The position numbers were made by a program, and so were the translations under genes. Source: Candidatus Methanoperedens sp. (GTDB lineage: Archaea > Halobacteriota > Methanosarcinia > Methanosarcinales > Methanoperedenaceae). From it: DNA of 62,162 nt. The stretch is taken from the NCBI GenBank assembly GCA_030650845.1, contig JAUSDC010000252.1, positions 1 through 62,162 of the forward strand, read 5' to 3'. The notes beneath the pieces were generated by a model. The model saw nothing but the letters and a program-made list of their open reading frames with translations. It made no database searches and was not told the DNA's origin. Every line of letters starts with the position of its first letter. Positions within the stretch are counted from its first letter, which is position 1. Shown here one piece after another: positions 8,411 through 55,386 of this stretch.

Positions 8411-8484
8411 TTAGACAGGATCGACAGGATTTACAGGATTTGCCACACAAATCGTATCCTGTCGATCCTGTAAATCCTGTCTAA
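8411..8484. repeat. Large inverted repeat built of 9-bp direct repeats
   Basis: Two 29-base arms (8411-8439 and 8456-8484) pair except at two dinucleotide positions, with a 16-base loop. Each arm is itself three ACAGGAT units spaced nine bases apart, with CG or TT linkers in swapped order. It sits between the convergent fen and DHH genes and could serve as a bidirectional terminator or a REP-like element. Confidence 0.75.
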
Positions 8485-42973: not shown

Positions 42974-43651
42974 ATGCACTCGATGAAGAAGCCCCTTATA
43001 GTAGTTAATTTTAAAACGTATGCCGAAAGCACGGGAGAAAAAGCGGTAAGGATAGCCAAGTATTGCGAGGAAGTAAGCCAGGACCACGGCGTATGCATAG
43101 TTGCAGTCCCTCAAATACCTGATATATTCAGAGTGGCGTCTTCGGTAAAGATACCAGTGTTCGCGCAGCATATAGACGGTGCAGGAGCAGGCAGCTTCAC
43201 AGGTCATATCACAGCAGAGTGTATCAAAGAAGCAGGAGCGTGCGGGACACTGATAAACCATTCAGAACGCCGTCTATTATTATCAGATATAGATTCAGCC
43301 GTGAGAGCCGCAAAAATAGCTGGACTGACAACGATAATTTGTACGAATAATATCGCTGTCACCTCAGCTGCGGCAGCGCTATCTCCTGATTATGTAGCGA
43401 TCGAACCACCTGAGCTTATCGGTTCAGGAATTCCAGTATCTAAGGCAGACCCAGAAATAGTCAGAGGGTCAGTTGCAGCAGTAAAAAAAATCGATCATAA
43501 GGTGAAGGTACTGTGCGGGGCAGGGATATCTAAAGGAGAGGACGTTGTTGCAGCACTTGAACTTGGAGTGGAAGGCGTTCTTCTTGCATCAGGTGTCATC
43601 AAGGCAAAAGATCCCATGGCAGCACTTCTTGACCTTGTGGGAAAAATATGA
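42974..43651 (+). CDS. tpiA: Triosephosphate isomerase
   Basis: Interconverts the two triose phosphates. The archaeal short form (225 residues) has the catalytic set Asn12-Lys14 (NFKTY), His96 (NHSERR) and Glu144 (IEPPELIG) and the phosphate loop GAGISKGEDV. An ATG at 42983 is an alternative start. Gene converges with infB, with 316 bases between, holding the tandem small-RNA-like units. Confidence 0.95.
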   Translation: MHSMKKPLIVVNFKTYAESTGEKAVRIAKYCEEVSQDHGVCIVAVPQIPDIFRVASSVKIPVFAQHIDGAGAGSFTGHITAECIKEAGACGTLINHSERRLLLSDIDSAVRAAKIAGLTTIICTNNIAVTSAAAALSPDYVAIEPPELIGSGIPVSKADPEIVRGSVAAVKKIDHKVKVLCGAGISKGEDVVAALELGVEGVLLASGVIKAKDPMAALLDLVGKI

Positions 43652-43693: not shown

Positions 43694-43790
43694 TTTATAT
43701 ACCATTAAATTGTGTAATGAAATTGTGGGCAGGACATCTTTTTTAACACACTAACCCCACTCCCCAACCTGCCCACATTCATTTATTTAG
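43694..43790 (+). ncRNA. Tandem structured element 1 (candidate small RNA)
   Basis: TATA box TTTATATA (43694-43701), then exactly 30 bases from its start a 10-bp closing stem TGTGGGCAGG (43724-43733) with CCTGCCCACA (43768-43777). The 34-base interior has T6, AACACACT and a C-rich part AACCCCACTCCCCAA. A T-rich tail follows. The next unit shares the interior with one extra C, while its stem differs at three pairs, all compensatory, which suggests selection on the stem. On the minus strand the element is G-rich (GGG, GG, GGGG, GGGG). No known family matches in my memory. Confidence 0.55.
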
Positions 43791-43814
43791 GATAACTAAT
43801 TTAATATTTGATTA

Positions 43815-43842
43815 ATAAATATTGCAATCCCGCAATATTTAT
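43815..43842 (+). promoter_or_regulatory. 11-bp palindrome overlapping the TATA of element 2
   Basis: ATAAATATTGC (43815-43825) and GCAATATTTAT (43832-43842) form a perfect 11-bp inverted repeat with a 6-base spacer, and the right arm overlaps the TATA box at 43838-43845. Element 1 has no such palindrome, so the two units could be regulated differently. It could instead be the terminator hairpin of element 1. Confidence 0.55.
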
Positions 43843-43930
43843 ATATGATGTAATTGTGTTAGGTTTCGATGGGCGGGACATCTTTTTTAACACACTAACC
43901 CCCACTCCCCAACCCGCCCATCTTTCTTTT
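43838..43930 (+). ncRNA. Tandem structured element 2 (candidate small RNA)
   Basis: Second unit with identical layout: TATA TTTATATA (43838-43845), exactly 30 bases to a perfect 10-bp stem GATGGGCGGG (43868-43877) and CCCGCCCATC (43913-43922), interior of 35 bases that equals that of element 1 plus one C, then TTTCTTTT. On the minus strand the run GGGCGGGTTGGGGAGTGGGG fits the canonical G-quadruplex pattern. It lies 38 bases beyond the infB stop region on its 3' side, so a terminator or G4 role for infB is an alternative to a plus-strand RNA. Confidence 0.58.
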
Positions 43931-43967
43931 AATAAAAATTATGAGACAATAGATGTAATCGCAGTTT

Positions 43968-45731
43968 TTATTTTCCCCAGAACGGATGTCCTCTGCGCCT
44001 TATTTCCATATACGCCATTACTGACTCTTTATCTTCGATCTTCATCGCCTCGAAAAGTTCCTGTTCAACTATTTTCGCATGCTTCTCAGGAACATCGATG
44101 TAAAGGATATCTCCTTCTTTGATCTGTCTGCCCACTGTTGGTCCGTCTATTGCCACAGCTACTTCCTTTCCGGCTGTCGCCTCACTGATATTTTCGTTAT
44201 GTTCCTGGATGCCTTTTATCTTCCCGACGATCGATCCATCCTCTTTCATCACTTCCAGGCTGGTCTTAATTATACCACCCATTACACGAACACCGACAAC
44301 TGCAGGTTTGCTCTGCCTGAATGTACAATCTGGAAGTATTATGAACCTTCCAGGCTTGATAATGGTCTCATAACGCTTTTTCTCGATAATTGCTTTTTGT
44401 TCCACCACCCATTTCTTGTAATCTTCAATAAGTTTGTAAATGACATTGTTCATGAACACCTTAATATCAGAACCCGTAATCTCTTCCTTTGCATCAGGAA
44501 GGATATCAACATCAAATCCCACAATTACTGACAACAAAGGGTCTTTTACTGTCTTTGCTTCAGCGATATCCCTTTTTGAAATATCCCCTATGTCCGCTCG
44601 TCGTATGGGAATATTTTCTTTCTTCAATTCATTGACAAGAGCTTCAAGTGAGCCTATCGTATCCGCTTTTAGTAATATACCACTTGATTGTGTCTCGATC
44701 CTGACAGCATCGATCTCGGATTTTATCTGGGCAGCTATTTCATTGATATCTCCTGAAGCTACCCGTATCAGAGAACCTGCAAGAGCCCCTTCAAGGTCAG
44801 GTGCTGCAATTTTGATCCCTGAAGCTGCGACAACCTTTTTCACCTGTTTGAACTTCTCTTCTGAGCGGATCTCGGAAAGTGGACGCGGCTTTAGAAGAGC
44901 CCTGATCTTTGTCACAATAGGTTCACCCAGGCTTCCGACCACCACAGTATCCCCGACATTTAATTCTCCATCGTACAGTATCACATCAAGCGTGGTGCCA
45001 AGTCCTATCTCTTCCTTCACCTCAAGGACAGTACCTGTCCCTGGTCCTACAGCCCTGTATTCAAGATCTTTTTCAAGGAACTTCTGTGCAAGCCCCATAA
45101 GGATCATAAGAAGATCGGGTATCCCCTCTCCGGTCTTTGCGCTAACTGGTATTACCCCGATGTTTTTCTGGAACTCTCGAACGCGGTCATACCTGTCTGA
45201 GCTGAAACCCATTTCATATAACTTTCCAATTATGATGTATATCTTTTCATCAAGGGCATTCTTCACATGTTCTGCCTGTTCTGGAAATGAAATGATAAAC
45301 GGTTTACCCTGCATGGGATTCCAGCCTGATAACCGATCGATCTTATTTGCTGCCACCACGAATGGCGTTTTGAATCTTTTCAGTATTTCTACAGCTTCTA
45401 TTGTCTGGGGCTGGAATCCTTCGTTAACATCAACCACCAGTACTGCAAGGTCAGCAAGCGCCCCGCCCCGTGCCCGAAGCGTCGTGAACGCCCTGTGTCC
45501 AGGAGTATCGATGAAAAGCAATCCTGGTACTTTAGTATCCCCTTTGAATACAGTCCCGCACACCCTTTTAACAACGTCCAGCGGCACTTCAGTAGCACCT
45601 ATATGTTGCGTGATGAGACCAGCTTCACGCTCTGCTATTGTGGTACCTCTTATCCTGTCAAGCAGAGAAGTCTTGCCATGATCCACATGCCCCATGACAC
45701 ACACTATAGGGGTGCGCAGATTTTGAACCAT
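43968..45731 (-). CDS. infB: Translation initiation factor aIF5B (IF-2)
   Basis: GTPase that joins ribosomal subunits at initiation. The 587-residue archaeal form carries G1 GHVDHGKT (14-21), DTPGHRAF, and NKID motifs in an N-terminal GTPase, then the beta-barrel domains 2 and 4. Length is that of archaeal aIF5B, shorter than eukaryotic eIF5B. It is the last gene of the rpl7ae-rps28e-rpl24e-ndk-infB series; a 71-base gap separates it from ndk. Confidence 0.97.
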   Translation of the reverse strand: MVQNLRTPIVCVMGHVDHGKTSLLDRIRGTTIAEREAGLITQHIGATEVPLDVVKRVCGTVFKGDTKVPGLLFIDTPGHRAFTTLRARGGALADLAVLVVDVNEGFQPQTIEAVEILKRFKTPFVVAANKIDRLSGWNPMQGKPFIISFPEQAEHVKNALDEKIYIIIGKLYEMGFSSDRYDRVREFQKNIGVIPVSAKTGEGIPDLLMILMGLAQKFLEKDLEYRAVGPGTGTVLEVKEEIGLGTTLDVILYDGELNVGDTVVVGSLGEPIVTKIRALLKPRPLSEIRSEEKFKQVKKVVAASGIKIAAPDLEGALAGSLIRVASGDINEIAAQIKSEIDAVRIETQSSGILLKADTIGSLEALVNELKKENIPIRRADIGDISKRDIAEAKTVKDPLLSVIVGFDVDILPDAKEEITGSDIKVFMNNVIYKLIEDYKKWVVEQKAIIEKKRYETIIKPGRFIILPDCTFRQSKPAVVGVRVMGGIIKTSLEVMKEDGSIVGKIKGIQEHNENISEATAGKEVAVAIDGPTVGRQIKEGDILYIDVPEKHAKIVEQELFEAMKIEDKESVMAYMEIRRRGHPFWGK

Positions 45732-55052: not shown

Positions 55053-55386
55053 TGAGTGAGGAGAGTAAGCCCCTTTATGTTTGGCGCAAGGAGCGAGTGC
55101 CCCTGTAGCGCCCATGCGGCATTCAGCTATGCGCCGTACTCGGACAGGTCTGGACTGCCCTGTGTGTCCTGTTTCGGCTTGCACCCGCGGGGATTCGCCG
55201 TTCCATCCACACGCGCATGACCTCATTCTTTCGAAATCATCGCATTACTGCGCAGCGGTATCGTTTCTGTTCCAGAGCCAGGACTCTCGCCCTACGCACT
55301 TGAGTGCATCCGCGGTCCAGATGGTGAGGGGACTTTCCTCAGCAGCAATATTGCTACCGGCAGCCGCCCTTCCTCTCTCATTCCAC
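55053..55386 (-). ncRNA. rnpB: RNase P RNA (archaeal type)
   Basis: Catalytic RNA that matures tRNA 5' ends. On the minus strand the 5' part contains GCTGAGGAAAGTCCCC (the CR I GAGGAAAGUC signature), the middle GGGTGCAAGCCGAA and the 3' part ACATAAAGGGGCTTACTC, equivalent to CR V (the ACAUAA...GGCUUAC pairing region). The ends GGAATGAG (about 55384 down) and CTCACTC (about 55054 up) can form P1 with one mismatch. A TATA-like AATTATAAG is about 20-30 bases upstream. Exact ends are approximate to a few bases. No other RNA gene was found in the window. Confidence 0.92.

Follow-up and report, generated by a model that had tools for sequence, protein, structure and literature searches.

Several bacterial sibling small RNAs, such as Listeria LhrC, staphylococcal RsaE/RoxS and the rhizobial 'cuckoo' RNAs, use C-rich single-stranded loops to pair with Shine-Dalgarno (SD) regions. 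Several of them are multicopy within a genome, they have bacterial promoters and terminators, and their targets have been shown. Among the archaea, Methanosarcina mazei has the intergenic sRNA154, which uses an anti-RBS sequence in its loop 2 to mask the ribosome-binding site (RBS) of glnA2 and also affects nif mRNAs, and sRNA41 (RF02905), which is reported to mask RBSs in ACDS mRNAs (PMC5867862). The sRNA154 gene is located between MM3337 and MM3338 and has a potential NrpR operator, GGTA-N6-TACC (PMC3177094). The M. mazei pair sRNA162/sRNA171 (191 nt, three stem loops) has BLAST homologues reported in Methanosarcina only, and sRNA162 targets an RBS (PMC3510493). Nine conserved, cold-induced intergenic sRNAs are reported from Methanolobus psychrophilus (PMC5378194).

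The window, that is, the whole 62,162-nt stretch of Candidatus Methanoperedens DNA that we analysed, contains two tandem hairpin units on the + strand. They follow a triosephosphate isomerase gene (42974-43651, +) and precede a convergent gene for a translation initiation factor, aIF5B/infB (43968-45731, -; Pfam GTP_EFTU and IF-2), whose 3' end faces the units and whose stop codon is 43 nt from the end of unit 2. Unit 1 has a TATA box, TTTATATA, at 43694-43701 and stem arms TGTGGGCAGG (43724-43733) and CCTGCCCACA (43768-43777), which enclose a 34-nt loop with a T6 tract (43739-43744) and the motif CCCACTCCCC (43756-43765). Unit 2 has the same TATA box, TTTATATA, at 43838-43845, arms GATGGGCGGG (43868-43877) and CCCGCCCATC (43913-43922), and a 35-nt loop with a T6 tract (43883-43888) and CCCACTCCCC (43901-43910). 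The two units have a common promoter offset, with 30 nt from the start of the TATA box to the start of the stem, and near-identical loops; both stems are perfect over 10 bp and differ from each other at three pairs (T-A/G-C, G-C/A-T and A-T/G-C), all of them compensated. The original prediction had described the TATA boxes, their offset, the stems, the loop lengths, the T6 tracts and the three compensated differences, and direct reading shows each of these to be exact, base for base.

Folded as RNA, each unit forms one hairpin, with z-scores of -5.1 (unit 1) and -5.7 (unit 2), and no shuffle out of 200 reached the same stability. Perfect inverted repeats of 10 bp or more with a comparable spacer are few within the 62 kb, and the arms of both units are among them. 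The predicted small RNA of unit 1 would be about 58-68 nt long (43723-43790, +), both ends being predicted and the 3' end uncertain; that of unit 2 would span 43867-43932 (+), with both ends likewise predicted. A T-rich stretch past stem 1 (43778-43790) and TTTCTTTT past stem 2 (43923-43930) are possible termination zones. We note that a perfect 11-nt inverted repeat with a 6-nt spacer, ATAAATATTGC/GCAATATTTAT, is located at 43815-43842 and overlaps the TATA box of unit 2; it is possibly an operator, or a terminator of unit 1. Elsewhere in the window, a long perfect inverted repeat of ACAGGAT units (GACAGGATCGACAGGATTTACAGGAT, 8415-8481) has the look of a dispersed, palindromic repeat element.

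A DNA search of the genome to which the window belongs found six more places besides the window. A search with the loop only, ignoring the stem, turned up additional copies, in which the sequences on either side of the loop pair into stems that differ in sequence. We built a covariance model (R1) from eight copies. At E<=0.001, R1 found 12 copies in this genome, including the window pair, which it matched at 43723-43779 (+, 76.3 bits) and 43867-43924 (+, 73.8 bits); these two scores come from a model built partly from the same two units. The ten further copies elsewhere in the genome exclude chance as the origin of the two units. Copies were present in all 34 sampled genomes of the Methanoperedenaceae, with 1-17 in each, and R1 matched 147 of 150 genomes across the order and 216 of 238 across the class. 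A broader model (R2), applied to genomes sampled across the phylum, matched 94 of 95 from the class, including Methanosarcina, Methanolobus, ANME-2 and Methanoperedens, versus none of the 298 others; most genera in this sample had one or a few copies. An exact motif occurred in 74 stretches among database records with named species, of which 71 were titled as members of the Methanosarcinales and three just as 'Euryarchaeota archaeon'. The genera and groups represented were Methanosarcina, Methanolobus, Methanococcoides, Methanomethylovorans, Methanohalobium, Methanosalsum, Methanohalophilus, ANME-2 and Methanoperedenaceae.

Copies adjoin many different, unrelated genes, and some neighbours are common to several species (riboflavin/lumazine synthase-like, infB and others). 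Some copies are recent duplicates, for example L002 and L003. The two units are very probably members of a multicopy small-RNA gene family found in nearly every sampled genome of the class, judging by sequence. The original prediction had proposed a covariance-model search of relatives, and that search has turned up further copies with conserved TATA spacing class-wide. We also observed one copy (L020, G000:C72:3688-3747) in which the outer stem is shifted (ACGAGCGGG/CCCGCTCGT) and CACTCCC is doubled in the loop, a Methanolobus-like form.

We aligned 97 distinct copies to assess the stem. The alignment was fitted to the structure, so its counts lean toward pairing, and with that lean 91% of stem cells were paired and 11 of 12 pairs had changed on both sides; the discovery of copies by loop only was independent of the stem. 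Compensatory cells numbered 210 in the 97 copies, versus 82±14 after shuffling and no more than 29 in any slid control, and pairing fell to 34-47% when partners were slid by 1-3 columns. A covarying RNA secondary structure, as in an archaeal TATA-driven small-RNA gene, is thus found. The ten core pairs contained 35 G·U wobbles versus 5 A·C mismatches. Because an A·C mismatch on the TATA strand corresponds to a wobble on the opposite strand, the excess of G·U indicates selection on RNA from the TATA strand, pointing to that RNA as the selected molecule.

A TATA box around positions -30 to -24 is the main signal upstream of the hairpin. It was in the predicted place, at the offset seen in unit 1 and unit 2, in 85 of 96 distinct copies, versus 13.8 expected from shuffled upstream sequence. 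The BRE/TATA element thus stands at a fixed distance when measured from the base of the stem, and the usual archaeal TATA spacing would put the RNA start at that base. Together with the 11 covarying pairs of 12, this placement bears out the predicted view of the units as putative TATA-driven small RNAs with a selected stem. T-rich runs past the stem followed 65 of 96 copies, versus 35 expected. The U tract within the loop could end transcription early, as the original prediction had noted. However, the loop U tracts are kept (TTTT lies within the match in 96/96 copies) together with a covarying 3' arm, which argues that the full hairpin is under selection. A conserved start codon for a short ORF inside the hairpin was not seen among the homologues.

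Almost every loop contains CCCACUCCC together with a U tract. The CCCACTCCCC motif was found in 88 of 96 homologues and CCCACTCCC in 91 of 96, and 1.7% of loop bases are G, versus 15.8% in the flanks. Relatives in Methanolobus and Methanosarcina have a longer loop with a second C-rich motif. Methanoperedens also has a second, separate TATA-driven hairpin family, with promoter CAAAAAGTCTWTATA and stem ACCTTTGCAG/CTGCAAAGGT, whose loop reads C-rich first, ACCACCACTCCCCAACCCACC and then a U tract. The C-rich loop motif CCACTCCCC is common to both families. Two full copies of the second family occur in the genome of the window (L017/L248, G000:C200:4181-4371; G000:C146:2953-3097), the one on contig C146 being separated by about 140 nt from a first-family copy. 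The second family, with further relatives L249-L277, also has a conserved downstream element, TTTTTCCCAAACTTTACCC. One loop motif on two different hairpins suggests that the loop, and not the stem, is the working part. We read both families, from their sequences, as putative sibling trans-acting small RNAs.

We hypothesize that the units are independent small-RNA genes whose products act as trans-acting siblings, presenting a constant loop to a shared partner; we give this explanation as a whole a probability of about 0.5. A BRE/TATA promoter would start transcription about the base of the stem, giving a hairpin RNA some 58-80 nt long. The stem would be free to vary while it stays paired, and its role would be to keep open a constant and almost G-free loop, in which (A)CCCC(C)ACUCCCC comes after a U tract. 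All copies would then act in trans on one common partner, which may be a G-rich sequence at or near mRNA ribosome-binding sites (the loop complement is GGGGAGUGG), and the U tract would be a possible site for an Sm-like (SmAP/Lsm) protein. The family, its stem, strand, promoter position and conserved loop were computed; transcription, the transcript ends, trans action, the anti-RBS partner and SmAP binding are what we infer from them. That the family is a trans-acting regulator is probable. Trans action is likelier than cis action because the genes that neighbour the copies are many and unrelated, some of them being common to several species. Pairing of the loop with ribosome-binding regions is the leading but unproven mechanism, to which we give somewhat less than even odds; it is favoured because GGGGAGUGG resembles a G-rich ribosome-binding sequence and because characterised Methanosarcina sRNAs mask RBSs (PMC5867862, PMC3510493).

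We computed target statistics in two samples of about 400 kb each, drawn from two genomes of the class other than that of the window. In the RBS windows of these samples, the loop paired no better than mononucleotide-shuffled loops, and RBS windows in the Methanoperedens sample paired slightly worse with the loop than with shuffled loops. An excess of loop-complement k-mers at gene starts was set aside, as it reflects SD-biased start choice and the reversed control was as high at 6-mers. A GGGGAGTGGG site before the start codon (ATG) identified no gene shared across the class. In 11 genomes, GGGGAGTG before ATG was about twice as frequent as in the reversed control, a ratio to be expected from SD sequences; apart from nifE, no relation linked the genes concerned, and transposase copies explain one repeated site. 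The translational control by pairing with GGGGAGTG that had been proposed at the outset thus found no backing in the RBS windows and no class-wide target. A match of 10 nt between the unit 1 loop and 16S rRNA, whose reverse complement holds AACCCCACTC, was judged to be chance, because five Cs in most homologues break it.

The one candidate target is a nifE-like gene (nitrogenase-component-1-type, Pfam Oxidored_nitro), which has GGGGAGTG directly before its start in four Methanosarcina genomes only. Duplexes of its start region with the loop are predicted at -18.5 to -21.4 kcal/mol in these four genomes. The site is found in congeners only, among which the entire upstream stretch is conserved, and could reflect ordinary conservation among close relatives; in three searched genomes that carry the RNA, the nifE-like gene itself had no match. 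We also note that an RNA copy lies 20-32 kb from the nifE-like gene with GGGGAGTG in three Methanosarcina genomes (G147, about 716-737 kb; G133, about 4.772-4.794 Mb; G132, about 3.538-3.570 Mb), but not in G117.

The main rival to mRNA pairing is a protein partner. The constant U/C-rich loop would be recognised by an SmAP/Lsm, cold-shock-domain or KH protein, which the RNAs would titrate or modulate; the identity of the stem would be irrelevant and copy number would set the dose, on the model of bacterial CsrB/RsmZ. This would account for a stem that varies freely, for a copy number that ranges from 1 to 17, for two motif copies in one loop in some relatives, and for a loop motif far better conserved than any predicted mRNA complement. 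However, a short protein site would not need loop positions outside the motif to vary as little within the genus as they do, and no partner protein was identified. We hold this reading only tentatively.

Two further explanations do without a trans-acting RNA. A cis element, be it a hairpin that serves as a terminator or within a 3'-UTR, or RNA antisense to the convergent aIF5B/infB gene, would fit the closeness of unit 2 to the infB stop codon and the tandem copies that adjoin infB in three relatives. It is improbable, given that every copy is preceded by an in-register TATA box of its own, that other copies adjoin unrelated genes, and that termination does not call for a conserved motif in an open loop of 34 nt. 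More improbable still is that the hairpin acts as DNA, in a mobile or single-strand DNA element (REP/MITE-like): although the copies are short and dispersed and include the recent duplicates L002 and L003, the bias of G·U over A·C favours one strand, the TATA offset is fixed, gene neighbours are common to several species, most genera have only one or a few copies, and searches of viral contigs and plasmids for the family gave no match. Returning to trans-acting sibling RNAs, their widest form would be a class-wide Methanosarcinia RNA regulon, in which two independent, genome-expanded hairpin families show one G-free U/C-rich loop to a shared partner as a global post-transcriptional regulator, uncatalogued in Rfam, of archaea that produce or oxidise methane. 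We offer this extension as speculative.

Within the window, the sole match to Rfam 15 was an archaeal RNase P RNA elsewhere (55054-55379, -; 199.7 bits). The hairpin region and 12 homologous loci, scanned at gathering and permissive thresholds, gave no credible match to the hairpin. Hence the original statement that the family was not a recognised one holds for Rfam 15, and we use 'new family' to mean one not recognised as a family in the sources searched; published lists of sRNA candidates from M. mazei and M. psychrophilus may already include some homologues under no family name. The M. psychrophilus sRNAs resemble the present family in being conserved and intergenic and in having promoters of their own, and they occur in a genus where the family is found (PMC5378194). 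It is unlikely that all nine are members, as Methanolobus-like genomes give 2-4 copies each, but overlap is possible. A C/D or H/ACA guide RNA was rejected, with no credible Rfam guide-RNA match and one uninterrupted stem with an open loop, as was sRNA41 (RF02905), a chance-level match (17.1 bits versus a cut-off of 45) on the opposite strand and outside the hairpin core.

The host class spans genetically tractable Methanosarcina and uncultured methane oxidisers, and Rfam is without a model for the family. With our model and alignment, expression of the family can be looked for directly in RNA-seq data that already exist, and the constant loop is a defined bait for the partner. Like sRNA154, the family is intergenic and archaeal, but it is multicopy and has a single hairpin, and GGTA-N6-TACC is not upstream of either window unit, a promoter difference that excludes sRNA154. 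It shares with sRNA162/sRNA171 the character of a duplicated archaeal sRNA, but differs in being a single short hairpin found class-wide rather than three stem loops, an architecture that excludes sRNA162. Archaeal small RNAs have seldom been traced outside a single genus, and this family is kept in almost every sampled genome of its class. We liken it to the bacterial C-rich sibling sRNAs by its loop and its copy number, and claim no relation in sequence.
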